Source: Bacteroidales bacterium (GTDB taxonomy: Bacteria; Bacteroidota; Bacteroidia; Bacteroidales; UBA932). Taken from it: a stretch of DNA of 62,539 bases. A program made the position numbers and the translations under genes. This document shows positions 13,195-59,322 of this stretch, one piece after another. The notes under the pieces were generated by a model. The model saw only the letters and a program-made list of their open reading frames with translations. It did no database searches and had not been told where the DNA came from. The stretch covers positions 1 to 62,539 of the forward strand of contig JAGBJY010000044.1 of NCBI GenBank assembly GCA_017934185.1, given 5' to 3'. Each line of letters opens with the position of its first letter. Position 1 is the stretch's first letter.

Positions 13195-15810
13195 ATGACT
13201 TCTAAGGAAATCCGCCAGAAATACCTGGACTTCTTTGCCTCCAAAGGCCACACCGTGGTGCCTTCGGCCCCCATGGTTATCAAGAACGACCCTACGCTCA
13301 TGTTCACCAATGCGGGCATGAACCAGTTCAAAGATATTTTCCTGGGCAACAGTGCCCCCAAATTCCCCCGCGCAACGGACAGCCAGAAGTGCCTGCGCGT
13401 AAGCGGCAAGCACAACGACCTGGAAGCGGTGGGCCACGACGGCCGTCACCACACCATGTTCGAGATGCTGGGCAACTGGAGCTTCGGCGACTATTTCAAG
13501 GCCGAGGCCATTGACTGGGCCTGGGAACTGCTCACCGAGGTGTACAAGATAGACAAGGCCAAGCTGTACGCCACCGTTTTTGAGGGCTCCAAGGAAGACG
13601 GAACTTCTTTGGACGAAGAAGCCCTGGCCGCCTGGAAAAAGCACCTGCCGGAAGACCACATCCTCCTGGGCAACAAGCACGACAACTTCTGGGAAATGGG
13701 CGACACCGGCCCCTGCGGCCCCTCCAGCGAGATTCACATAGACCTGCGCAGCGACGAGGAAATTGCCAAACTTCCCGGACGGGAGCTGGTGAACACCGAC
13801 AACGACGACGTCATTGAAATCTGGAACCTGGTGTTCATGCAGTTTAACCGCAAGGCCGACGGGCACCTGGAGCCGCTGCCGGCCAAGAACATTGACACCG
13901 GCATGGGCTTCGAACGCCTGTGCATGATTCTCCAGAACAAGAAGAGCAACTACGAGACGGATGTCTTCAGCGGCCTTATCGGCCAGGTAGAGGCTTTCTC
14001 CGGGCACAAATACGCAGAGGGTGGCAACGTCCAGGTGGCCATGCGCGTAATTGCCGACCACATCCGCGCCATCGCCTTCTCCATTGCCGACGGCCAGCTC
14101 CCTTCCAACGTGAAGGCCGGCTACGTGATTCGCCGCATCCTTCGGCGCGCCGTGCGCTACGGCTACACCTTCCTGGGCTTTGGCGAGCCCTTCCTCTGCC
14201 GCCTGATCCCGCAGCTGGTGGCCGATATGGGCGAGGCCTATCCCGAGCTCAAGGCCCAGCAGCCCCTCATTGAAAACGTCATCCGCGAGGAAGAAAACGC
14301 CTTCCTGCGCACGCTGGACCGTGGTATCCGCATGCTGGAAGACAATATGGCCCGCAATGCCGCCACCAAGGTGGTATCCGGCACCGATGCCTTCGTGCTC
14401 TATGACACCTATGGTTTCCCCATCGACCTCACCGAGCTCATCGCGGCCGAAAAAGGCTTCACCGTGGACCTGGATGGCTTTAATGCCGAGCTCCAGAAGC
14501 AGAAGGAGCGTGCCCGTAACGCCACCGCCAACGAATTTGGCGACTGGGTGGAGTTCCGCTCCGGCGACGAGGTGCAGTTCACCGGCTACGACCACCTGGA
14601 AGAGAAGGAGGTCCATCTCCTTCGCCAGCGCGTGGTGAAGCAGAAGAACAAGGAGTACTTCCAGCTGGTGTTTGACCGCACGCCCTTCTATGCCGAAATG
14701 GGCGGTCAGGTGGGCGACACCGGCTGCATCGTGAGCGCCTCCGGTGAAAAGATAGCCATTCTTAACACCGTGAAAGAGAACAATCTGACCATCCATCTGG
14801 CCGAGCATCTGCCCGCCGACGGCATGGAAAGCTTCAGCCTCTTTGTGGACGGAGAGCGCCGCCAGCGCATTATGAACAACCATACCGCCACGCACCTGCT
14901 GCATCAGGCGCTGCGGGAAATCCTGGGCACCCACGTGGAGCAGAAAGGCTCTTTTGTGGGGCCGGACTACTTCCGCTTTGACTTCTCTCATTTCCAGAAG
15001 GTTACGGACGAAGAGCTGCGGGCCGTGGAGAACCGCGTGAACGCCCTTATCCGCGCCAATGAGCCCCTCTGCGAAAAGCGCGATGCCACCATGGACGAGG
15101 CCAAGGCCATGGGCGCCATGGCCCTTTTCGGCGAGAAATACGGCGACGTGGTGAGGGTGGTGCGCTTCGGCGACTCCATCGAGCTTTGCGGCGGTACCCA
15201 TACCCGCGCCACCGGAACCATCGGCCTGTTTAAAGTGCGGGCCGAAAGTGCCGTGGCGGCCGGTGTGCGCCGCATCGAGGCGGTGACCGGCGCTGCCGCC
15301 GAAGAGGCCATCCAGACCGTTGAGGACATGCTCAAGACCGTGCGCGGCTTCTTCAACAACGTTCCGGACCTCACCTCGGCCATTGAAAAAATGGTGGCCG
15401 AAAATGCCGATGCCCGCAAGCAGCTGGAAGCCATCGCCGCCGAAAAGGCCGCAGCGCTGGCCGAAAAGCTGGAGGCCCATGCCGTTGAGATCAGTGGCAT
15501 CCGGGTTATTCGCTTTGACAACTCCGTGGACCCGGCCATGGCCCGCAATATGGCACTGCTCTTGCAGAAGAAGGCCCAGAACCTGGTAGTGGCCGGAGCC
15601 TTCGCCTTTGGCGGCAAGCCCAACCTTGTACTCATGTACTCAGGCGACCTGGTGGCCAAGGGCAAGAATGCCGGCAAGGACATCCGCGAGGCCGCCAAGT
15701 ACATTCAGGGCGGTGGCGGCGGACAGCCCGGCCTGGCCACTGCCGGCGGACGCCTGCTGGAAGGCCTCCCGGAGGCCCTGGATAAACTTGTGGAGTTGGC
15801 TATCGGCTAA
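13195..15810 (+). CDS. alaS: Alanine--tRNA ligase
   Basis: Class II synthetase that charges tRNA-Ala; 871 aa, the normal full length. The catalytic domain shows [19 protein letters not shown] and TGPCGPSSE; the editing domain has the zinc ligands HTATH and LCGGTH; the C-terminal domain ends with the glycine-rich [10 protein letters not shown] stretch. The stop shares its last A with the start of the next gene (TAATG), so the permease-Fmt ORF is coupled to it. Confidence 0.98.
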
Positions 15811-18344
15811 TGAAAAAACTGGACCAGTTCATACTCAAGTCGTTTGTGGGACCGTTTTTCGCGATCCTGGCCATTGTAGTATTCATACTGGTCATGCAGT
15901 TTTTGTGGGTATACATTGACGAACTGGTGGGGAAGGGCCTGGAATTCAAGGTAATCCTTGAGTTCCTGATGTGGGGGAGCTGCCAGGTGCTGCCGCTGGC
16001 CATTCCGCTGGCAACGCTCCTGAGCTCCATGATGACCCTGGGCGACATGGGTGAGCACTTTGAGCTCACGGCCATCAAGGCCTCCGGGGTGTCGCTGGCG
16101 CGGGTGCTGGTGCCCATGACGGTGGTGAGCCTCTTCATCATGGTGGGGGCGTTCTATATCGGCGACCGCCTGGTGCCCTATTCCATCAACCAGATTTACA
16201 CCATGCGGGATGATATCGGCCGCACCAAAAGCGAGATTAAAATCCCCACGGGCACCTTCTACGACGGCATTGAGGGTTATATCCTTCGCGTAGATCGCCG
16301 GGACAAGAAAACCGGCATGATGTACAACATCCAGGTGTACGACCACACCGGCAGCAAGGGCAATACCCGCATTACGGTGGCCGACAGCGGCATCATCAAG
16401 ATGTCCAAGGCCAAGGACTACCTCACGTTCCAGCTCTTTGACGGAACCAATTACCAGGAGGACAACACGCGCAAATACCGCGACACCACCCTGGCGCTGC
16501 GCCGCATCCGTTTCCGCAGCCAGGAAATGGTGATTCCGCTGGAGAATTACGCGTTCCACCATTCCGATTCGGCCCGTTACGGGGAGCAGGTGCGTTCCAT
16601 GAACCTCGCCTCGCTCCAGCACGGGCACGACTCCCTGGTGGGGCTGGTGAACGAAGGCACCCTCAAGCACGTGCGCGAATTCCAGAGCCAGACCTATCTG
16701 AGCCACCGGAACCAGTTGGACACGGCCTGGCGCAGCAAGGCCTCCGTGGCCCTGGATCCTCCTTCCGAGGGCCGATGGAACACCCTTGCCGACAAGAAAC
16801 GGGCCTTGGAATCGGCGGCATCGGCTGCCCGGCAGTACGAAAGCCTGGCCCGCGGGCAAACCATGGAGTCTTATGACTACACGCGCCTGATTTACCGCAC
16901 GGACGTGGAGATTTGGAAGAAGTATGCGCAGGCGCTGGCCTGCCTGCTGCTCTTTTTCATCGGCGCGCCCATCGGGGCCATTGTGAAAAAGGGCGGTCTG
17001 GGCACCCCGGCGGTGCTTTCCATGCTCTTCTTTGTGCTTTACTGGGTCATTGACATCACCGGCGAGCGTCTGGCCAACAACGGCGCCACCACGGCTTTTA
17101 TCGGCAAGTTTGTATCGGCCTTTGTGCTGGCGCCCATAGGGGTGTGGCTTACGGTGAAGGCGGTGAAGGATGCCAGCCTGTTCAACATGGACCTGCTGAA
17201 GAGCGGATTCCGCAGAATTAAAAGTAAGTTTTTCCGTATGTTCCGAAAGACAAGAATTGTGTATATGGGCACGCCGGAGTTCTCGGTGGGGCCGCTGGAT
17301 GCGCTGGTCAGTGGCGGCTACAAGATTGTGGGCGTGGTAACGGCGCCGGACAAACCCTCCGGACGCGGGCTCAAAATGAATGAGAGCGCGGTAAAGAAGT
17401 ATGCGGTGGAGCATGGGCTGCAGCTTTTCCAACCGGAAAAACTCAAGGCGCCCGGTTTCCTGGAGGCGCTTGCCGCCCTGAAGGCCGATTTGTTTGTGGT
17501 GGTGGGCTTCCGGATGCTGCCGGAAGTGGTATGGACCATGCCGCGCTACGGAACCTTTAACCTGCATGCCGCCCTGCTGCCCCAGTACCGTGGCGCCGCC
17601 CCTATCAACTGGGCGGTGATTAACGGCGAGAATATCACGGGTGTAACCACCTTTATGATTGACAAGCAAATAGATACGGGTGGCATTATCCTGCGCTCCG
17701 AGTGCCGGCTGGAACCCACGGACACCGCCGGGGACCTGCACGACAAGCTCATGGAGCTGGGGTCTTCGCTGGTAGTGGAAACTGTGGAAGGGATTGTGCA
17801 GAAGAACGTGGAACTGCGCATTCAGCGCAGCTTTATCCAGGGCTCGGAACTGCTCAAGCCCGCTCCCAAGCTCACACGCGAACTGCAGCACATTGACTGG
17901 AACGACAGCACGCGGCAGGTGTACAACCTCATCCGCGGCCTGTCCCCGTTCCCCTGCGCCTTCACGGAACTCGTGCCCGCCGCCCCTGTTCCGGAAAGGG
18001 ACACGCTTTCCTCCGCGTCGCTTCGCGACCCTGTCCGGGCAAATGCTCCGGAAAGCGTGTCCCCTTTCGGAACTGCCTCCGCTGTGCAGCTGAAGGTGTT
18101 CTTCGGCGAAATGCGCTATGACCTGCACGGGGCGCCGGGAACGGTGCTTTCGGACGGCAAGACTTACTTTGCGGTGGCCACCCAGGACGGCGCCATTGCC
18201 ATCACCGACCTGCAGCTCTCCGGAAAGAAGCGCATGGACGTGAAGAGTTTCCTCCTGGGCTTCCGCAATCCTACTTCTTATGTGTGCACCCAGGGCACTT
18301 CCAAGGCAGAAATCGCCAAGGCGCAACCCGTGCCCGAAGACTAA
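15810..18344 (+). CDS. fmt: LptF/LptG-family permease fused to methionyl-tRNA formyltransferase
   Basis: One uninterrupted 844-aa frame joins two proteins. Residues 1 to about 475 are a YjgP/YjgQ (LptF/LptG) permease: three N-terminal helices, a periplasmic domain and three C-terminal helices, used in LPS export. Residues 477-844 are Fmt, starting MFRKTRIVYMGTPEFSVGPL, with NLHAALLPQYRGAAPINWA, the active-site MIDKQIDTGG and the C-terminal GKKRMDVKSFLLGF. No stop separates them; ATG 17238-17240 could start Fmt internally. TAA codons at 17219 and 17225 lie one frame over. Topology allows a fusion, since LptF/G C-termini face the cytosol. Fmt also carries a palindromic repeat insertion (17988-18073). 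Confidence 0.9.
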   Translation: MKKLDQFILKSFVGPFFAILAIVVFILVMQFLWVYIDELVGKGLEFKVILEFLMWGSCQVLPLAIPLATLLSSMMTLGDMGEHFELTAIKASGVSLARVLVPMTVVSLFIMVGAFYIGDRLVPYSINQIYTMRDDIGRTKSEIKIPTGTFYDGIEGYILRVDRRDKKTGMMYNIQVYDHTGSKGNTRITVADSGIIKMSKAKDYLTFQLFDGTNYQEDNTRKYRDTTLALRRIRFRSQEMVIPLENYAFHHSDSARYGEQVRSMNLASLQHGHDSLVGLVNEGTLKHVREFQSQTYLSHRNQLDTAWRSKASVALDPPSEGRWNTLADKKRALESAASAARQYESLARGQTMESYDYTRLIYRTDVEIWKKYAQALACLLLFFIGAPIGAIVKKGGLGTPAVLSMLFFVLYWVIDITGERLANNGATTAFIGKFVSAFVLAPIGVWLTVKAVKDASLFNMDLLKSGFRRIKSKFFRMFRKTRIVYMGTPEFSVGPLDALVSGGYKIVGVVTAPDKPSGRGLKMNESAVKKYAVEHGLQLFQPEKLKAPGFLEALAALKADLFVVVGFRMLPEVVWTMPRYGTFNLHAALLPQYRGAAPINWAVINGENITGVTTFMIDKQIDTGGIILRSECRLEPTDTAGDLHDKLMELGSSLVVETVEGIVQKNVELRIQRSFIQGSELLKPAPKLTRELQHIDWNDSTRQVYNLIRGLSPFPCAFTELVPAAPVPERDTLSSASLRDPVRANAPESVSPFGTASAVQLKVFFGEMRYDLHGAPGTVLSDGKTYFAVATQDGAIAITDLQLSGKKRMDVKSFLLGFRNPTSYVCTQGTSKAEIAKAQPVPED
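17988..18073 (+). repeat. In-frame palindromic coding element (fmt copy)
   Basis: Arms of 24 nt (17988-18011 and 18050-18073; 22 of 24 positions complementary) flank a 38-bp core at 18012-18049 that begins TCCGCGTCGCTTCGCGACCC. The core encodes SASLRDPVRANAP. It sits in the C-terminal Fmt domain between TELVPAAP and AVQLKVFFGE, where homologues have a short loop. Confidence 0.85.
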
Positions 18345-18360
18345 AAGTGTGGCTGCTCAT

Positions 18361-18395
18361 GCAAAAGGTCGGATTTGAGGCCGCCGACCTTTTGC
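18361..18395. repeat. 12-bp inverted repeat upstream of thiamine pyrophosphokinase
   Basis: GCAAAAGGTCGG (18361-18372) and CCGACCTTTTGC (18384-18395), perfect complements with an 11-nt loop, just after the fmt stop. There is no T-tract. Confidence 0.7.
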
Positions 18396-18435
18396 GCCGA
18401 TAATGGCCTGCGATCCCTTCTGTTGCCGTTTTGCT

Positions 18436-18470
18436 GCAAAAGGAGGGCACTATTAAAACCGACCTTTTGC
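18436..18470. repeat. Second hairpin of the same family
   Basis: GCAAAAGGAGGG (18436-18447) and CCGACCTTTTGC (18459-18470) repeat the hairpin at 18361 with two mismatches. The right arm ends 2 nt before the ATG at 18473, where the -7 box would be expected. Confidence 0.6.
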
Positions 18471-18472
18471 AA

Positions 18473-19114
18473 ATGGACCGTATCATCATACTTTGTAACG
18501 GGGCTTTTCCTACAGAGCCGTATCCGCTGTTCCTTCTGGACGGTGCGGAGGGTGTGGTGTGCTGCGACGGGGCGCTGGAAAAACTGCTATCATATAGCCC
18601 GGAGGCCCGGCCCCTGGCGGTGGTGGGGGACCTGGATTCCTTGCCGGATGCGCTTAGGGAGCGTTTTTCGGCCTGCATTGTGCACGTGGCCGAGCAGGAC
18701 GACAACGACATGACCAAGGCCCTTCGCTGGGTGCTCCGGGAGCATCCGGAGGCCACCGACATTACCTTCCTGGGGGCTACGGGCCTGAGGGCCGACCATA
18801 CCATCGGCAATCTGGGCCTTCTCATGGAATATACCCGGCTGTTTGACCTGGGGGAGCGGCGCCTTTCGGCCGTAGACGATAATGGGACGGCGTTTGCCAT
18901 CACCGACAGCTGCGAGCTGCACCTGGGCGAAGGCCGCCGTTTCTCCCTTTTCAGTGCCGATAATTCGCTCAGAATCACTTCCGAAGGCCTCCAGTGGCCC
19001 ACGGACGGAGTTGTCTTTGACGCCTGGTGGAAAGCCACGCTCAACCGCACATCGGCCCCCATTGTGCGCCTGCACTTCTCACACCCTTCCGCCGCGCTGG
19101 TGATGATTGATTAA
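18473..19114 (+). CDS. Thiamine diphosphokinase
   Basis: 213 aa. Transfers pyrophosphate from ATP to thiamine to make the cofactor ThDP, which DXS also uses. Diagnostic motifs are VVGDLDSLP, EQDDNDMTKAL and LGATGLRADHTIGN. The start MDRIIILCNGAFP is preferred over an in-frame ATG 42 nt earlier that falls in a hairpin. It is convergent with miaA, and the two stops overlap within TTAA (19111-19114). Confidence 0.9.
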   Translation: MDRIIILCNGAFPTEPYPLFLLDGAEGVVCCDGALEKLLSYSPEARPLAVVGDLDSLPDALRERFSACIVHVAEQDDNDMTKALRWVLREHPEATDITFLGATGLRADHTIGNLGLLMEYTRLFDLGERRLSAVDDNGTAFAITDSCELHLGEGRRFSLFSADNSLRITSEGLQWPTDGVVFDAWWKATLNRTSAPIVRLHFSHPSAALVMID

Positions 19115-19998
19115 GGCCGCACCCAGTGGATGCGCACCCCGTCGCGCTCCATGCCGCGGAACCAGGTCATCTGGCGCTTGGCAAACTGGTGGATGGCGTT
19201 GCCCAGGGCCACTTCCATGTCCTCGTAGCTCAGCTGCCCCAGTACATACTGCGTAACAAACTTATACTCAAGGCCGTAGTAGAGAAGGTCATCGGCCGGG
19301 ATGCCGGAAGACAACAGGCTGCGGATTTCTTCCACCAGGCCTTCCTGGAGGCGCTCCGTAAGGCGTTTGTCTATCCGTGCCACCCTTTCTTCGCGGGTGA
19401 CAAGGGTGCCGATATAGTAAGGCTTCATCGGCAGCTGTGAAGCCGGGAGACCGTTCTCCTTTTCAAACTTATACGCGCGCGTGACAGATTCGATGTACAG
19501 GCCGCTGCCGCCGCAAAGGATGGGGATGGCCCCCCGCGAGCGCACATCGGCATAGGCATCGGCAAAGGCCTGCTGGTACTGGTAGATGTTGAATTTGCTG
19601 CCGGCCGGAACAATGTCAATCAGGTGGTAGGGGACATCCCCGTATTCGGCCAGGTCTTTCCCGGTGCCGATGTCCATGCCGGTGTACACCTGCCGCGAAT
19701 CGGCCGACAGAATTTCCGCTTGGACGGAAGGGGCGCTTTGCGGAGCATTTGCCCGGACAGGGTCGCGCAGCGACGCGGAGCAAAGCGCCCCTTCCGTCCG
19801 GGCTAGTGCCCTTGCGAGCTGCACGGCATAGCGGGTTTTGCCGGAGGCAGTGGGCCCCAGCACCACGATGAGGTCGATGGCGCCGTCGGCATACAGGCGT
19901 GCCAAATGGGCAGGCTCAATGATTTCCGGGTCCGGGAGCTTGGCCATGGGCGGGATGCCGGGGCGGTCCGGCAGCAGCTGCGTGCGGTTCAGTTTCAT
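19111..19998 (-). CDS. miaA: tRNA dimethylallyltransferase
   Basis: 295 aa. Adds the dimethylallyl group to A37 of tRNAs that read UNN codons, using DMAPP. P-loop GPTASGKT and the substrate motif SADSRQVYTGMDIGTGK are intact, as is the C-terminal RQMTWFRGMERDGVRIHW. Between the P-loop helix and SADSRQ lies an extra segment, TEGALCSASLRDPVRANAPQ, encoded by a palindromic repeat. Start at 19998 is 5 nt from a -7 box, so the mRNA is probably leaderless. Confidence 0.95.
   Translation of the reverse strand: MKLNRTQLLPDRPGIPPMAKLPDPEIIEPAHLARLYADGAIDLIVVLGPTASGKTRYAVQLARALARTEGALCSASLRDPVRANAPQSAPSVQAEILSADSRQVYTGMDIGTGKDLAEYGDVPYHLIDIVPAGSKFNIYQYQQAFADAYADVRSRGAIPILCGGSGLYIESVTRAYKFEKENGLPASQLPMKPYYIGTLVTREERVARIDKRLTERLQEGLVEEIRSLLSSGIPADDLLYYGLEYKFVTQYVLGQLSYEDMEVALGNAIHQFAKRQMTWFRGMERDGVRIHWVRP
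19722..19799 (-). repeat. In-frame palindromic coding element (miaA copy)
   Basis: Perfect 20-bp arms (GGACGGAAGGGGCGCTTTGC at 19722-19741 and its complement at 19780-19799) flank a 38-bp core (19742-19779). On the coding strand the core differs from the fmt core at one position and is read in the same frame, giving SASLRDPVRANAP. The arm sequences differ from those in fmt, but each pair is self-complementary. Confidence 0.9.
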
Positions 19999-20003
19999 AT
20001 CTG

Positions 20004-20011: not shown

Positions 20012-20020
20012 CACACATTT

Positions 20021-20046
20021 TGTCATTCTGAACGAAGTGAAGAATC
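20021..20046 (-). repeat. Intergenic copy of the CAGAATGACA-family repeat
   Basis: TGTCATTCTGAACGAAGTGA followed by AGAATC lies between the divergent miaA and smpB promoters. It is the same family as the copies at 7661 and 8508 in the kinase gene. Confidence 0.7.
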
Positions 20047-20053
20047 TTTTTAT

Positions 20054-20553: not shown

Positions 20554-20565
20554 CCGTCCCAAAAT

Positions 20566-20617
20566 ATGTGGATAGATTTGGCTTGCTTGCAACCACGTTA
20601 AAAAATGCTAAAAAACA
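20566..20617 (+). promoter_or_regulatory. SAM-II-like riboswitch aptamer
   Basis: Stem P1 ATGTGG (20566-20571) pairs with CCACGT (20593-20598). The 17-nt loop GATTTGGCTTGCTTGCA (20575-20591) matches the SAM-II pattern GAUUU-N7-UUGCA in length and at both ends. The conserved 3' strand GCTAAA follows at 20607-20612 and would complete the pseudoknot. Its position in the metK leader fits a SAM sensor. The call is by eye; no covariance model was run. Confidence 0.7.
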
Positions 20618-20637
20618 TTTCATATCAGTGTTTTGTG

Positions 20638-53950: not shown

Positions 53951-54042
53951 CCCAAATCGCGCGTTTTGGGCCATTTTTGACCGATTTCGCGCTTGGACGC
54001 ATCTCAAATCGTGCATTTTCAGCCAAAAATGACGGTTTTCAG
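53951..54042 (+). repeat. REP-like bipartite palindromic element A
   Basis: Two imperfect palindromes joined by GCGCTTGGACGCATCT. The 60 bp at 53974-54033 recur as a perfect inverted copy at 56225-56284 (element B). It lies between the efflux operon and the polyprenyl synthase. Confidence 0.85.
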
Positions 54043-54077
54043 TTTAAGGGGCCGGCTTGCAGCTCCGTACTTTTTGC

Positions 54078-54085
54078 TATCTTTG
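54078..54085 (+). promoter_or_regulatory. -7 box TATCTTTG for polyprenyl synthase
   Basis: Perfect TAnnTTTG, 4 nt from the ATG at 54090, predicting a leaderless mRNA. Confidence 0.75.
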
Positions 54086-54089
54086 CAAA

Positions 54090-55064
54090 ATGATAGCACA
54101 AAACACCCTCGAAAGCGCCCTCGAAAGCCTTTTCGCCAACCCTGGTTTTCAGCAGGAGCCGGCGGGTCTGTACGACCCTCTGCGTTATATGATCGCCATC
54201 GGCGGCAAGCGGCTCCGCCCCCGCCTTTGCCTTACCACCTACGGCATTTATGCCGATGAGCTCACGCCTGCCATCCTGCAGCCGGCCGCCGGACTGGAAA
54301 TCTTCCACACCTTCACCCTCATCCACGACGACATCATGGACCGCAGCCCCCTGAGGCGTGGCCATGAGACCGTTTGGAAAAAGTGGGGGGAAGATACCGC
54401 CATCCTCAGCGGCGATGTGATGTTCATCGAGTCGTACCGCCGCATGGCGCAGGCTCCATCGGCCGTTCTCCCTGAGGTGCTGGACCTTTTCTCCCGCACC
54501 GCCAGCCAGGTCTGTGACGGACAGCAGCTGGACATGGACTTCGAGCGCAAGGAGATTGTGCCCATGGGGGACTACATGCAGATGATCGGCCTTAAAACCG
54601 GCGTCCTCATTGCCTGCGCGGCACAGCTGGGTGCCCTTATCGGCGGGGCCAACCTGCCCAGTCAGGAGTGCCTGTACGACTATGGCTACTACCTGGGCCT
54701 GGCCTTCCAGGTGGCCGATGACTATCTGGATGCCTACGGTGACGAAAAGGTGTTTGGGAAACCCATCGGCGGGGATATCCTGAACCAGAAGAAGTCCTGG
54801 CTCACCATCCGGGCCTACGAAAAAGGCGCAGAGGGGCTGATGGAAGCCCTGCAGGCCCCGGCCGAAACCCCAGAAGAGAAAGCCGCCAAGATTGCCCGGG
54901 TAAAAGCCATCTACGACAGCGTAGACGTGGCGGCCGATGCACGCAAAGCCATCGGCGACCTCACCACCCGCGCCATTTTCAAAGGCACCGATGCCGGCAT
55001 GGGCGCGGATGGGCACGAGGCCCTGCGGCAGTTCGCCGGCAGCCTTGTTGGCCGTACGGTATAA
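54090..55064 (+). CDS. Polyprenyl synthetase family protein
   Basis: 324 aa trans-prenyltransferase that condenses IPP with allylic diphosphates. First Asp-rich motif in LIHDDIMDRSPLRRG and second in DDYLDAYGDEKVFGKPIGGD are intact, as is GGKRLRPRL. Chain length (FPP, GGPP or longer) cannot be set by eye. Start chosen at MIAQNTLES because the -7 box sits 4 nt before it. Flanked on both sides by REP-like elements A and C; dxs, another isoprenoid gene, lies 4 kb downstream. Confidence 0.92.
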   Translation: MIAQNTLESALESLFANPGFQQEPAGLYDPLRYMIAIGGKRLRPRLCLTTYGIYADELTPAILQPAAGLEIFHTFTLIHDDIMDRSPLRRGHETVWKKWGEDTAILSGDVMFIESYRRMAQAPSAVLPEVLDLFSRTASQVCDGQQLDMDFERKEIVPMGDYMQMIGLKTGVLIACAAQLGALIGGANLPSQECLYDYGYYLGLAFQVADDYLDAYGDEKVFGKPIGGDILNQKKSWLTIRAYEKGAEGLMEALQAPAETPEEKAAKIARVKAIYDSVDVAADARKAIGDLTTRAIFKGTDAGMGADGHEALRQFAGSLVGRTV

Positions 55065-55086
55065 CTCCTCCTCACGCATATCTAAC

Positions 55087-55179
55087 TGAAAACCGTCATT
55101 TCGGGGCAGAAATGACGGTTTTCAATTGCGACCGTGCGTGAAATCGGTCATTTTGGGCCGAAAACGCACGATTTCGCGC
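55087..55179 (-). repeat. REP-like bipartite palindromic element C
   Basis: A perfect 16-bp hairpin (TGAAAACCGTCATTTC 55087-55102, complement 55109-55124, loop GGGGCA), then linker, then a second palindrome (55136-55146 with 55169-55179, one mismatch). The segment 55111-55166 matches element D inverted over 56 bp with one mismatch. Confidence 0.85.
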
Positions 55180-55283
55180 ATTGTGGATGAAGGGGACATC
55201 GGCCTGAAGTGCGTAGAAGGCCGATTTTACAAAATTATCCGTTTCATATTTTTTAAACGGATAAGAATTGCTTACTTTGCTCC

Positions 55284-56195
55284 ATGTCAAGATTGATTGA
55301 ACGAAAAATATACCGGGCAGTAGGTGAGGGAGATTACCATTTCTGCACAGACGGTCTCAGCGGAGGCCTTTTATTCAACACCCAAGCGGAGTATTCGTTT
55401 GGCATGTTCCTGATGGGGCTCATTTGCATCAAGTTCTCCATCCGGATTTATGCTTTTACGCTGATGCCCAACCACATCCATATCATTCTGCATGGCACAG
55501 GGGAGAATTGCGTGCTGGCGTTCGACTTCCTGAAACGGAAACTGTCGGCCCGGCTCAAACGGGACGGGTATGGTCCATTACCGGACAACTATTGGTTCAT
55601 GCTCACCCCCATCGATTCGGAGCTGCAGCTTCGGCAAGAGTTCATTTATGTTCTGCGGAATCCCTTAGAACAAGGGCTATGTGCGGTGGGCGGGTACCAG
55701 TGGAGCTCCGAGTGGCTCTATTACTCCAACTTTTCCACCTTGCTACAAGGCACTCCGGTTAGTCAAATCTCCAAACGCAGCCTCAAGGGGATGCTGGGCG
55801 GAGAGGACGAATTGCCTGGCCATTGGCTGGTGCATCCCGAAATAGGGCTGTTGCCCGGCTCATTTGTAGATGTGGATGCAGTGAGGGCGCTGTTTCCTCA
55901 CCCCAAAGACCTCCAAATAGCGCTGGTAAAAGACTACGAGGTGTTTTATCAGATTGCATCACGGCTGGGGGAACTCACCAAATACAGCAAAAGCGAGTTG
56001 GAGAGCATCGTCTCACAAACGCTACAGCAGCGGTTCAGCGGCAAAACCCTCCGCATGCTTTCGGAAGAGGACAAAGGAAAACTCATGATTATCCTCCATC
56101 GGGAGTTTGGCATGAACTCCTATCAAATCTCTACAACCATTTATGTGAAGGAAAAGATTGTCAGGCAGTTCTTGGGTTCCAAAGAACTGCGCTAA
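55284..56195 (+). CDS. REP-associated tyrosine transposase (RAYT, Y1_Tnp/IS200-like)
   Basis: 303 aa. The HUH metal-binding motif is in LMPNHIHIILHG (about 67-78), and a candidate catalytic Tyr is in FIYVLRNPLEQG (about 132), followed by YQWSS. Beyond the nuclease domain is a C-terminal extension with a helix-turn-helix-like end (FGMNSYQISTTIYVKEKIVRQF). Such RAYTs nick and move REP palindromes instead of a full IS; no IS ends are seen. It is flanked directly by elements C and B, with A and D beyond the neighbouring genes. The start is 4 nt from a near-consensus -7 box (TTACTTTG). Confidence 0.88.
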   Translation: MSRLIERKIYRAVGEGDYHFCTDGLSGGLLFNTQAEYSFGMFLMGLICIKFSIRIYAFTLMPNHIHIILHGTGENCVLAFDFLKRKLSARLKRDGYGPLPDNYWFMLTPIDSELQLRQEFIYVLRNPLEQGLCAVGGYQWSSEWLYYSNFSTLLQGTPVSQISKRSLKGMLGGEDELPGHWLVHPEIGLLPGSFVDVDAVRALFPHPKDLQIALVKDYEVFYQIASRLGELTKYSKSELESIVSQTLQQRFSGKTLRMLSEEDKGKLMIILHREFGMNSYQISTTIYVKEKIVRQFLGSKELR

Positions 56196-56215
56196 TGCTT
56201 CTTTAACAGCCCCAC

Positions 56216-56308
56216 CTCAAATCGGTCATTTTTGGCTGAAAATGCACGATTTGAGATGCGTCCAAGCGCGAAATCGGTCAAAAACGGCTAAAAACGCGCG
56301 ATTTGGGG
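56216..56308 (-). repeat. REP-like bipartite palindromic element B
   Basis: Inverted copy of element A: 60 bp (56225-56284) perfectly complementary to 53974-54033. It sits 20 nt after the RAYT stop. Confidence 0.85.
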
Positions 56309-56385
56309 TGGCCGGGGTTTGGGAGTTGGGATTTTTTCGTTAATTTAGCGCTCTGTTAGTAAAGTGTATATAAAAACAGAAGAAT

Positions 56386-57816
56386 ATGTCTGAAAAGATT
56401 AAATCCCTCATGAACGACAGCGCGACCCTGCGCTGGACAGCGCTCATCCTCATTGCCCTCATGATGTTCTTCGCGTACCTGTTCGCAGACATCCTCTCCC
56501 CGCTGAAATCGCTGCTGGAGAGCTCCAGGGGCTGGGATAGCGCCACTTTCGGCACCTATGCCGGCGGTGAGTATTTCCTGAACGTATTTTTCTTTTTCCT
56601 CATCTTTGCCGGCATTATCCTGGACAAGATGGGGGTACGCTTCACCGGCATTCTCAGCGCCTCGCTCATGTTTGTGGGCGCCTGCGTGAAGTACGTGGGC
56701 GTAAGCGACTGGTTCCAGAGCACCGAGATGATGAACTGGCTCAACAGTTGGTGGACCTCCTTCCCCGGAAGCGCCAAAATGGCTACTCTGGGTTTTATGA
56801 TCTTCGGCTGCGGCTGCGAAATGGCCGGCACAACGGTGTCCAAGGCCATCGCCAAGTGGTTCAAGGGTAAGGAGATGGCTCTGGCGATGGGCGTGGAGAT
56901 GTCCATCGGCCGATTGGGCGTTTTTGCCGCCATGTGGCTTTCCCCGGCCATCTCCAAGGCATTCCCGGATGCCGTGGGCGCTCCGGTCCTCTTCGGCGCC
57001 CTGCTGCTCCTCATCGGCCTCATCACCTTCAGCGTCTTCTGCGTGATGGACAAGAAGTTCGATGCCCAGCTAGCGGCCATCGGCCAGTCCGACGACTCCA
57101 AGTCCGATGAATTCCAAATCAAGGACCTGGGCCGCATCTTCACCAGCAAGATGTTCTGGATTGTGGCCATCCTGTGCGTACTGTACTACAGCGGCATTTT
57201 CCCCTTCCAGAAATTCGCCACCAACTTTCTGGAGGAGACCCTGCAGGTGGAAGCTTCGCTGGCCGCCCGCCTGTTCAGCTGGTTCCCCATCCTGGCCATG
57301 ATCCTTACCCCCTTCCTGGGCATTTTCCTGGACAAGAAGGGCAAAGGAGCCACCATGCTCATGATTGGCGCCCTTATCATGATGGTGTGCCACCTGTGCT
57401 TCGCCTTTGTACTGCCCGTGTACAAGGCCCAGTGGCTGGCCGTAGGCTTGATTCTTATCCTGGGCGTGAGCTTCTCGCTGGTGCCTGCCGCCCTCTGGCC
57501 CTCCGTTCCCAAAATCATTGACGAAAAGATTCTGGGAAGCGCCTACTGCGTGATTTTCTGGGTACAGAACATCGGCCTCTGGGGCGTTCCGCTGCTGATT
57601 GGCGCCGTGAACAAAGCCACCGGCGGCTATACCGTTCCCATGATTATCTTCGCCAGTTTCGGCCTCATTGCTTTCCTGTTCACCTTCCTCCTCAAGATAG
57701 AAGACAAGAAGAAAGGCTATGGCCTGGAACTTCCCAACATCAAGGAAGAACCCGTGGCCGTTGACGCCGAAACCCTGGCCGAAGAGTTCGCCAAAGACGA
57801 ATGCTCCGATAAATAA
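56386..57816 (+). CDS. MFS transporter
   Basis: 476 aa with 12 predicted helices. Major-facilitator motifs: DKMGVRFTG after helix 2, GCEMAGTTVSKAIAKWFKG in the first half and LDKKGKGATM in the second. Substrate unknown; the closest relative visible is the next gene, which shares AKWFKG, ALWPSVPKI and WVQN. TAATG overlap couples the two. Upstream box TAATTTAG is one base off the -7 consensus. Confidence 0.88.
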   Translation: MSEKIKSLMNDSATLRWTALILIALMMFFAYLFADILSPLKSLLESSRGWDSATFGTYAGGEYFLNVFFFFLIFAGIILDKMGVRFTGILSASLMFVGACVKYVGVSDWFQSTEMMNWLNSWWTSFPGSAKMATLGFMIFGCGCEMAGTTVSKAIAKWFKGKEMALAMGVEMSIGRLGVFAAMWLSPAISKAFPDAVGAPVLFGALLLLIGLITFSVFCVMDKKFDAQLAAIGQSDDSKSDEFQIKDLGRIFTSKMFWIVAILCVLYYSGIFPFQKFATNFLEETLQVEASLAARLFSWFPILAMILTPFLGIFLDKKGKGATMLMIGALIMMVCHLCFAFVLPVYKAQWLAVGLILILGVSFSLVPAALWPSVPKIIDEKILGSAYCVIFWVQNIGLWGVPLLIGAVNKATGGYTVPMIIFASFGLIAFLFTFLLKIEDKKKGYGLELPNIKEEPVAVDAETLAEEFAKDECSDK

Positions 57817-59159
57817 TGGACGCCCGTAAAGTTTACAGGTCGGCGGCCTGGCTGGTGCTGGCCTGCCTTGTAGTGCCGATGTTCGCATCGTACTACTTCG
57901 ACGACATGTTCTCCAGCATCTCGTATCTGTTTGAGAATGCGTCACTTACACAGCTTGGCTGGGATGCGTCCGGCTATGGTCTCTACGCCAGCGGCTACAG
58001 CGTCCTGTGCGTGTTCGGCGGTCTGGTCCTGGGAGGTATCCTCCTGGACAAATGGGGCGTCAGGGTAACCGGATCGCTCTTTGTGGGCCTCATGGTTGCC
58101 GGCGCCGGCTTGGTGCTGTGGGCCCTTCTGGGCGGACAGAGCTGGTCGCTGAAAGTGGCCTACGCAGGATGCATGATTTTCGGGCTGGGCAGTGAAATCG
58201 CCGGCACCGCCGTTACTCGCAGCATCGCAAAATGGTTCAAAGGCGGGCCGATGGCTTTCGCCATGGGGCTCCAACTGGCCATTGCCCGCTTGGGGACGGC
58301 CTTTGCGCTGGTGCTTTCGCCGGCGCTGGTAAAGCAGCAGGCCAATCATGTCTACACCCTGGCCGAAACAGCCCGTCCCGCCGAAGTAGGGATGGGCCTG
58401 ATGGCCCTGGGGCTCATTCTGTGGGCGGTTTTCGTGGCGCTGGATGCCCGGACAGGGTCGCAAAGCGACGCGGATGGAAGCGCTTCTTCCTCTGCCGCTG
58501 AGGCTCAGGACAAAGAAGTCTTCCGTCTTAGAGACGTCCTTAAAGTACTGGGGAACAAGAACTTCTGGCTGCTGGGCCTGCTCTGTGTACTGTTCTACAG
58601 CAGCATCATCGCCTTCAAGAAGTTCGCAGGAGCCATTCTGATTCCCCGTTTCGACATCCCCGCATCGGCCGCCGGCTGGATGGTATCCATGCTGCCTTTT
58701 TCCACCGTTGTCTTTGCGCCGCTGTTTGGCATGCTGGTAGACAAGGTGGGGCACGGCACCCGTTGGATGGTCATTGGCGCCATTCTGGCTCTCATCGCCC
58801 ACAGCCTGCTGGCTTTTGCCCCGCAGGGCGTGCCGTTCTGGGGATACCTGGCCATGGTCTTCCTGGGCTTCGGCTACTCGCTGGTGCCCGCCGCCCTCTG
58901 GCCTTCCGTCCCCAAAATTGTGCCGGACAAAGTGCTGGGAACCACCTTCGCCCTGGTGAACTGGGTGCAGAATCTGGGCCTCCTCAGCTTCAAATGGGTT
59001 TCCGGCGCCATCCTGGGGGCATCGGCCCTGAACGGTCCCTTCCATGTAGAACTGATGTTCACAGGCCTCTGCGTGGCCTCGGTGCTGGTGGCCCTTCTTT
59101 TCATGCGCACCTCCCGCCGTCACCCTTCCCTGGGGCTGGACAAACCGAATAAGAATTAG
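57816..59159 (+). CDS. MFS transporter (paralogue)
   Basis: 447 aa, 12 predicted helices, clearly related to the preceding gene (LDKWGVRVTG, AKWFKGGPMAFAMG, VPAALWPSVPKI). The cytoplasmic loop between helices 6 and 7 contains DARTGSQSDADGS, encoded by a 30-bp fragment of the palindromic element found in fmt and miaA. Tandem duplication suggests a heteromer or diverged substrates. Confidence 0.88.
   Translation: MDARKVYRSAAWLVLACLVVPMFASYYFDDMFSSISYLFENASLTQLGWDASGYGLYASGYSVLCVFGGLVLGGILLDKWGVRVTGSLFVGLMVAGAGLVLWALLGGQSWSLKVAYAGCMIFGLGSEIAGTAVTRSIAKWFKGGPMAFAMGLQLAIARLGTAFALVLSPALVKQQANHVYTLAETARPAEVGMGLMALGLILWAVFVALDARTGSQSDADGSASSSAAEAQDKEVFRLRDVLKVLGNKNFWLLGLLCVLFYSSIIAFKKFAGAILIPRFDIPASAAGWMVSMLPFSTVVFAPLFGMLVDKVGHGTRWMVIGAILALIAHSLLAFAPQGVPFWGYLAMVFLGFGYSLVPAALWPSVPKIVPDKVLGTTFALVNWVQNLGLLSFKWVSGAILGASALNGPFHVELMFTGLCVASVLVALLFMRTSRRHPSLGLDKPNKN
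58445..58474 (-). repeat. Partial core of the fmt/miaA palindromic element
   Basis: A 30-bp stretch matching the element core (29 of 30 against the fmt copy), inverted relative to the gene and without recognisable arms. It lies in frame in the helix 6-7 loop of the MFS protein. Confidence 0.75.
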
Positions 59160-59187
59160 CTCCGGCAGCACATCCGCCGCCCGCCAA

Positions 59188-59279
59188 CTCAAATCGCGCG
59201 TTTTCGGCCCAAAGTGACCGATTTCACGCACGGTCGCAATTGAAAACCGTCATTCTCACTGCAAAATGGCGGTTTTTCC
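59188..59279 (+). repeat. REP-like bipartite palindromic element D
   Basis: Inverted counterpart of element C: 59199-59254 matches 55166-55111 over 56 bp with one mismatch. The second palindrome has decayed arms. It lies between the MFS genes and dxs. Confidence 0.8.
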
Positions 59280-59322
59280 GTTACGCAAAGATGGAGAAAA
59301 CGCAAAATCGGCCAAAAATGCT

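Follow-up and report, generated by a model that had tools for sequence, protein, structure and literature searches.

The contig JAGBJY010000044.1 of a Bacteroidales bacterium (assembly GCA_017934185.1), analysed over positions 1 to 62,539 (62,539 nucleotides) and referred to here as the window, carries a short palindromic element within two genes on opposite strands, fmt and miaA (Table 1). Each copy of this element, here called type A, consists of a 38-nt tip set on two self-complementary arms, which measure 24 nt in fmt, with 22 of 24 positions paired, and 20 nt in miaA, with 20 of 20 paired. The tips differ by a single base (T/G), a change that gives the miaA copy a TGC loop for the TTC of fmt and turns CTT into the synonymous CTG, and both elements encode SASLRDPVRANAP in the sense direction of their genes. 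These positions, the arms and the 38-bp core with one difference had been given in a preliminary description, and all were confirmed; that description had covered these two copies, and the window holds a third, a half copy oriented opposite to its plus-strand host open reading frame (ORF), with DARTGSQSDADGSASSS as its in-frame antisense reading. The ORF hosting the half copy looks, from its sequence, like a transporter. A 39-nt tip pattern allowing up to 3 mismatches matched the fmt and miaA copies in the window and nothing in 100 dinucleotide shuffles; on this result, and with copies present in separately assembled genomes, chance and assembly artefact were rejected.

Upstream of fmt, the same open frame encodes a membrane-protein portion that resembles YjgP/YjgQ by eye. 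The fusion looks real, as most same-genus genomes also have an open frame of about 790-870 aa at Fmt.

Table 1. Type A elements, their host genes and other features of the window
Feature	Position	Strand	Remarks
Type A element in fmt	17988-18073 (left arm 17988-18011, tip 18012-18049, right arm 18050-18073)	+	in-frame reading ...ERDTLSSASLRDPVRANAPESVSPF...
Type A element in miaA	19722-19799 (arms 19780-19799 and 19722-19741, tip 19742-19779)	-	reading TEGALCSASLRDPVRANAPQSAPSV
Third, half copy	58445-58490	-	one arm and most of the tip; second arm absent
fmt (methionyl-tRNA formyltransferase), host gene	17238..18344	+	part of a longer open frame
miaA (tRNA dimethylallyltransferase), host gene	19111..20001	-	
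Open frame containing fmt	15810-18344	+	844 aa
Repetitive extragenic palindrome (REP)-like repeats, TCATTCTGAACGAAGTGAAGAATCT and TGTCATTTCGAGCGAAGTCGAGAAATCT	20020-20050		
SAM-II riboswitch	20562-20621	+	62.8 bits (above the gathering score); directly upstream of a metK-like ORF
Repeat region	53951-59281		42-nt repeat, seven times, mostly paired at 52-nt distance; long inverted copies of up to 92 nt

Distribution, host proteins and reading phase

The family extends well beyond the window. In its own genome (G000; 2.13 Mb in 62 contigs, 86% complete), 21 places match a 29-nt tip pattern with no more than 3 mismatches, one of them being the half copy and another (L040) lacking proper arms, and the reversed 29-nt control pattern has no match in that genome. 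Among 100 relatives searched, the tip pattern was found in 6 of the 60 that belong to the genus and in none of the 40 from other families, so the further copies anticipated by the preliminary description do exist; no type A copy was found, as searched, in close relatives such as G117, G038 and G051. An exact 24-nt pattern run over a collection of 84,980 species returned 89 stretches, and among the 80 matches listed, 79 come from metagenome-assembled genomes (MAGs) labelled Bacteroidales or Bacteroidia, many of them titled rumen or other ruminant gut. The remaining match, an exact tip copy (L142), lies in a MAG labelled Fibrobacter whose sample number equals that of a positive Bacteroidales MAG, and this contig may be misbinned. 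The same exact pattern had no match in viral contigs, and carriage by phage was rejected. In all, 108 distinct copies were compiled, nearly all from Bacteroidales MAGs; elements are mostly 64-112 bp long, with arms mostly of 14-30 nt and a tip that is nearly invariant over about 30 nt.

Comparison with homologues bears out the insertion that the preliminary description had supposed. The peptide occurs in none of 29 fetched same-genus homologues of MiaA, about 20 of which have only a few residues separating the helix (ARAL) from AEILSADS, the rest carrying other, unrelated inserts there. In Fmt, G000 has it, as do two (G005 and G028) of the 29 same-genus homologues fetched; the site is a short turn in about 17 of the 29 and is filled by longer, different stretches in the remainder. 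Where the own-genome proteins have about 29 (MiaA) and 38 (Fmt) residues, solved, distant homologues have 2 and 3, respectively, and lack the peptide. Judged from these alignments, the element is an insertion absent from most MiaA and Fmt homologues. In G037, which stands near G005 in the Fmt tree, the Fmt site holds just a short stretch, which could be an outer-arm remnant or an empty site.

A Pfam scan of spanning ORFs covered 29 of the 108 copies (14 from the own genome and 15 from relatives). In addition to Fmt and MiaA, families were obtained for 11 of the 14 own-genome copies, comprising TruA, MraW/RsmH, TruB, WbqC, Pterin_bind (FolP), prephenate dehydrogenase, a 4Fe-4S protein, DNA polymerase I (PolA), a SpoU methylase, CitG and Radical_SAM_N. 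In relatives, 12 of the 15 scanned copies gave families at E <= 1e-4 (one under its curated cut-off), with hosts that include MetRS, CysRS, the gamma and A chains of ATP synthase, UvrA, DnaX, a ketoacyl synthase and an M16 peptidase.

The frame in which these proteins read the element is strongly restricted. Gene frame was assigned from codon usage outside the element, a strict rule demanding the same best frame on both sides. Under this rule 33 of 56 copies read SLRDPVRAN, 22 read FARTGSRSD on the other strand and one reads another frame; a looser rule gives 49, 31 and 1, respectively, for 81 copies. Because the arms are mirror images, the two used frames amount to a single phase through the arms, which 55 of the 56 strict copies share (p = 2e-25 against one third). 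Orientation is therefore free (33 vs 22, p = 0.18) and phase is fixed. The same orientation and frame had been noted earlier for fmt and miaA; this holds for those two genes, and the arm phase generalises, but orientation follows no rule, with 33 copies sense and 22 antisense to the gene and the half copy of the window also reversed. Stop codons do not explain the fixed phase, since none of the six frames is interrupted in 86 of 105 copies. The unused phases probably give more hydrophobic or aromatic peptides that are not tolerated. Copies without an ORF through them, such as L044, L061 and L088, have an unchanged tip.

Pairing and separate histories of arms and tip

The tip is built of a small hairpin, GTCGC-TTC-GCGAC, a short CC..GG hairpin and a CAAAT stretch, and the minimum-energy DNA structures of two copies show it as two small hairpins. 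It is nearly constant, the TTC loop being present in 105 of 108 copies. The arms vary freely in sequence and keep their pairing, as the preliminary description had observed for two copies. Watson-Crick pairs fill 1594 of the 1680 cells formed by 16 inner arm positions in 105 of the 108 copies (three, with arms shorter than 12 nt, were excluded); the other cells are A-C (41), G-T (21) and further combinations (24). Covariation was scored on 60 copies, each from a different site, and reached 0.636, whereas slid partners gave 0.121-0.180; cells with changes on both sides number 390, against 91.0 after shuffling, with none of 500 shuffles as high. Such two-sided change is seen at 20 of 20 arm pairs, one-sided changes being limited to 16 of 1740 cells. 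An earlier count on alignment A2 (52 copies), lacking 10 of the 60, several of which have arms that are shifted or poor, and including two further copies, gave a score of 0.639. RNA under selection normally shows many G-U steps, and the scarcity of G-T or G-U in the arms therefore favours a process in DNA in which one arm serves as the template for the other. A scan of 22 sources against Rfam 15 gave, over the element, just matches to hairpin families below the gathering score, and a known structured RNA family was rejected.

Tip and arms appear to have been inherited along different lines. Similar flanks place 75 of the 108 copies in groups, which allows loci to be compared between genomes; L147-L154 (7 of the 108 copies) were left out of these tests. 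Tips at different loci within a genome differ at a mean of 1.10 of 38 positions and are identical in 62% of 396 pairs, whereas tips at the same locus in different genomes differ at 2.09 positions (28% of 64 pairs identical), and all other pairs at 2.37 (14% of 4490 identical). When genome labels were shuffled within loci, none of 500 shuffles reached so low a within-genome tip distance. Arms at the same locus differ at 5.24 of 16 positions, vs 7.73 for the same genomes elsewhere, the lowest of 1000 draws being 6.78. The tip thus goes by genome and the arms by locus.

Individual tip variants give the same picture. An A or C variant divides the family (75 and 32 of 108 copies, respectively), with C in 20 of 20 own-genome copies and A in 11 of 11 copies from JAFVAU, and the split holds where these two genomes share a site (L024/L060 and L035/L062). 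A GGAGC edge marks 4 of 5 copies in G028 (JAEEXZ), at sites where other species carry other edges. In the two frames that are used, the A/C change is silent; it would alter one residue in each of the remaining four. The pattern of tip by genome and arms by locus indicates homogenisation of the tip, and concerted evolution of the tip on resident arms is its simplest reading. The alternative to homogenisation is repeated insertion at tolerant sites, which surely also happens.

Related tips and shared insertion sites

A covariance model of the element gave matches at E <= 0.01 in 35 of 121 genus genomes, many with other tips. In 44 such related elements the first tip helix, P2, is GTTGC/GCAAC, GCTGC/GCAGC or GCGC/GCGC, the second, P3, is GCC/GGC in two copies, and the tail is CAAAT, TAAAT or AAAAT. 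Two pairs of P2 show two-sided change, in 19 of 50 and 19 of 52 sequences, on a model-fitted alignment biased to the structure. The TAAAT-tailed relatives lie outside any spanning ORF in 14 of 17 cases, and others with an AAAAT tail lie inside ORFs. In one relative (L262) the tip hairpin is enlarged by about 20 nt, P2 forming a longer stem-loop with the rest of the tip kept. Plain terminators were considered for the other-tip relatives and are unsupported: 25 were examined, and the 10 with neighbours called on both sides comprise 3 divergent, 3 convergent and 4 one-direction arrangements. A second model, run over 393 genomes of the order at E <= 1e-4 with 12 candidates scored per genome, found no match beyond the own genome. 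Both models (R1 and R2) were built from hand-chosen sets (A2, A5), and absences in their searches over more than 40 genomes are weak evidence because few candidates are scored per genome (39 and 12).

The linker of CysRS, compared in 15 genomes, illustrates how one site can host several kinds of insert. G028 and G037 carry type A there, and G114 and G122 carry it reversed; G000 and G117 have a palindrome with another tip (type C), G109 a variant of type C, G104, G057 and G051 repeats of the TGTCATTTCGAGCGAAGTCGAGAAATCT kind, and G054 a half element, the rest having shorter or different stretches. Since this linker holds type A, type C and other repeats, coding palindromes of several families have entered these genes. 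The REP-like TCATTCTGAACGAAGTGAAGAATCT and TGTCATTTCGAGCGAAGTCGAGAAATCT repeats of Table 1 also occur at MiaA and CysRS sites of relatives, and some occupy the same gene sites as elements.

The type C tip is AAAANAAGGCCGATGCTCC, with copies in G000 and G117 such as L361, L378 and L383-L402. Its pattern has 21 matches in G117, 11 in G000 and 1-3 in 20 more of the 121 genomes, mostly armless; several of the fetched matches also have short or absent arms. In their best gene frame, 18 of 20 fetched G117 and G000 matches read KADAP, QADAP or MADAP, always in the element-sense direction. The Fmt copy of G117 had been taken for a decayed tip, an idea dropped when the CysRS comparison and the pattern search revealed this second tip family.

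Explanations and comparison with known systems

The reading favoured here, at a probability of about 0.65, is that these are lineage-specific short mobile palindromic elements that insert in genes, are translated within the protein and have their tip renewed separately from their arms. Almost the only insertions to survive would be those in the phase of a hydrophilic, flexible peptide (PEGDTLS...) within a linker or turn of variable length. Complementarity of the arms would be kept by arm-to-arm copying in the hairpin, that is, by quasipalindrome correction in DNA and not by selection on RNA, and the tip would be renewed from other copies in the genome via gene conversion or tip exchange. Several points weigh against this account. 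No insertion event was witnessed, no target duplication is definable and no mobiliser was found. Copies from named genomes were found with the exact 24-nt pattern, which masks variation in that stretch, and constancy of the tip could be partly a coding constraint, given that the A/C variant is synonymous. CAMVMG and CAMHST are mixed, with several tip-edge types each. The MetRS copies L050 and L119 have flanks that are 94% identical and different arms, and some same-locus pairs may be separate insertions, the same linkers accepting other palindromic families; nor are same-locus copies independent. A swap between type A and type C tips on kept arms is unsupported: at four sites with a type C tip, the same-site type A arms rank in similarity at best 3rd (Fmt) and 7th, 5th and 34th (CysRS) among 105 copies.

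The alternative that fares best, although it is put forward tentatively, holds that these are REP-like sequences moved by a Y1 tyrosine transposase of the REP-associated (RAYT) type, which would recognise the folded tip on single-stranded DNA. The own genome has three Y1_Tnp genes in open frames of 292-323 aa, and Y1_Tnp is found in 34 of the 35 genomes of the genus that have the element or a relative of it vs 55 of the 86 that have neither (Fisher p = 7e-5, uncorrected for kinship); in the Fmt tree, type A genomes cluster. The remaining positive genome, G159 (two model matches, 83% complete), had no detectable Y1_Tnp. GCGNAGC-type DNA hairpins are specially stable, and the antisense tip strand has them in most copies; the excess of A-C (41) over G-T (21) among arm mismatches also fits, as A-C would be a wobble pair on that strand. 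However, no tip-like sequence lies within about 1.5 kb on either side of the three Y1 loci of the own genome, where alone this was examined, and the ends of the element have no unpaired GTAG or CGTC tag. The association is also not particular to Y1_Tnp, since RVT_1 is enriched as well (16 of 35 vs 17 of 86, p = 0.006), neither being corrected for kinship. A reverse transcriptase as a necessary partner was rejected, RVT_1 (E <= 1e-10) being missing in 19 of the 35 element genomes.

Slightly less probable again is the proposal that the tip alone is the spreading unit, a dedicated process copying its 30-38 nt into the ends of palindromes that genes already harbour. Such hairpin-tip homing, if true, would be a new kind of mobile DNA, the arms serving as docking sites that evolve by self-copying.

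It is unlikely that the tip is a structural element selected by the host, whether a binding site or an RNA, and held by purifying selection at each site instead of by homogenisation. The tip is near-constant although the flanks of shared sites are merely 65-95% identical, and P2 covaries between families, as such selection would have it; yet the tip follows genome and not locus, both orientations relative to the gene occur, type A is lacking in the close relatives named above, and no Rfam family reaches threshold over the element. Less likely by a good margin is that the peptide itself is useful or constrained in its proteins. SASLRDPVRANAPE does recur in unrelated proteins, and both the commonest tip variant (A/C) and the CTT to CTG change of the own miaA are synonymous, but one DNA encodes two different peptides (SLRDPVRAN and FARTGSRSD), other tip variants alter the peptide (PVRENAP, TSLRDPVRANVP), and the ORF-less copies L044, L061 and L088 carry the same tip. 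Removal after transcription, as for an intron, or bypassing by the ribosome is scarcely credible: location in housekeeping genes recalls the bypassing elements of some mitochondria, which sit in such genes, but a fixed phase would be needless if the element were removed, and 55 of 56 copies are in phase and open.

The closest parallels are other palindromes that enter genes. Rickettsia palindromic elements (RPEs) and the coding palindromes of Wolbachia are described as short palindromic repeats that have inserted, in frame, into genes unrelated to one another and mostly of housekeeping function, and that are translated (PMC10969869, PMC2996958). The resemblance to RPEs suggested in the preliminary description is supported at the level of behaviour: a palindrome has inserted into unrelated protein genes, as a rule in frame (55 of 56 copies in one phase), and the peptide is absent from most homologues. 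The present elements differ from the Rickettsia and Wolbachia palindromes in belonging to another lineage and in combining a near-invariant tip, which goes by genome, with arms that vary yet pair. They are read as coding palindromic elements of the Rickettsia type that probably form a new family, the tip evolving apart from the arms.

REPs of the GTAG and CGTC kinds offer a second comparison. They are described as palindromes 20-40 bp in length that carry an unpaired tag on one side (the stem of the CGTC kind measuring 8-9 bp) and sometimes lie in frame in genes, including those of the UvrABC complex, DNA polymerase I and TruB; for the CGTC kind, a search for a transposase found none (PMC3733652). 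To that extent the palindromic form and the choice of genes are similar. The Bacteroidales elements are longer, however, with paired arms at both ends, no end tag and CGTC inside the tip helix, and, unlike RAYT-associated REPs (REPtrons), have no copy flanking the Y1 genes at 3 of 3 own-genome loci. A miniature inverted-repeat transposable element has fixed terminal inverted repeats and a target-site duplication; here the arms are inverted repeats that differ from copy to copy, and no target duplication could be defined. Mitochondrial double-hairpin and GC-cluster elements are likewise small mobile hairpins occurring as repeats, in another compartment; we know of none that hold one reading phase across many housekeeping genes.

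A literature search of partial coverage returned no description of such an intragenic palindromic element in Bacteroidales. As far as we know, what is new is the near-invariant tip on arms that vary yet pair, the split histories of tip and arms, and a fixed phase with free orientation. To our knowledge, the origin and spread of coding palindromes such as the Rickettsia elements are unsettled, and the present case supplies an independent family with many copies, shared sites, insert-free homologues and diagnostic tip variants, in which phase, orientation, arm correction and tip renewal are each testable. In this rumen genus, core enzymes carry many extra peptides that apparently derive from mobile DNA.

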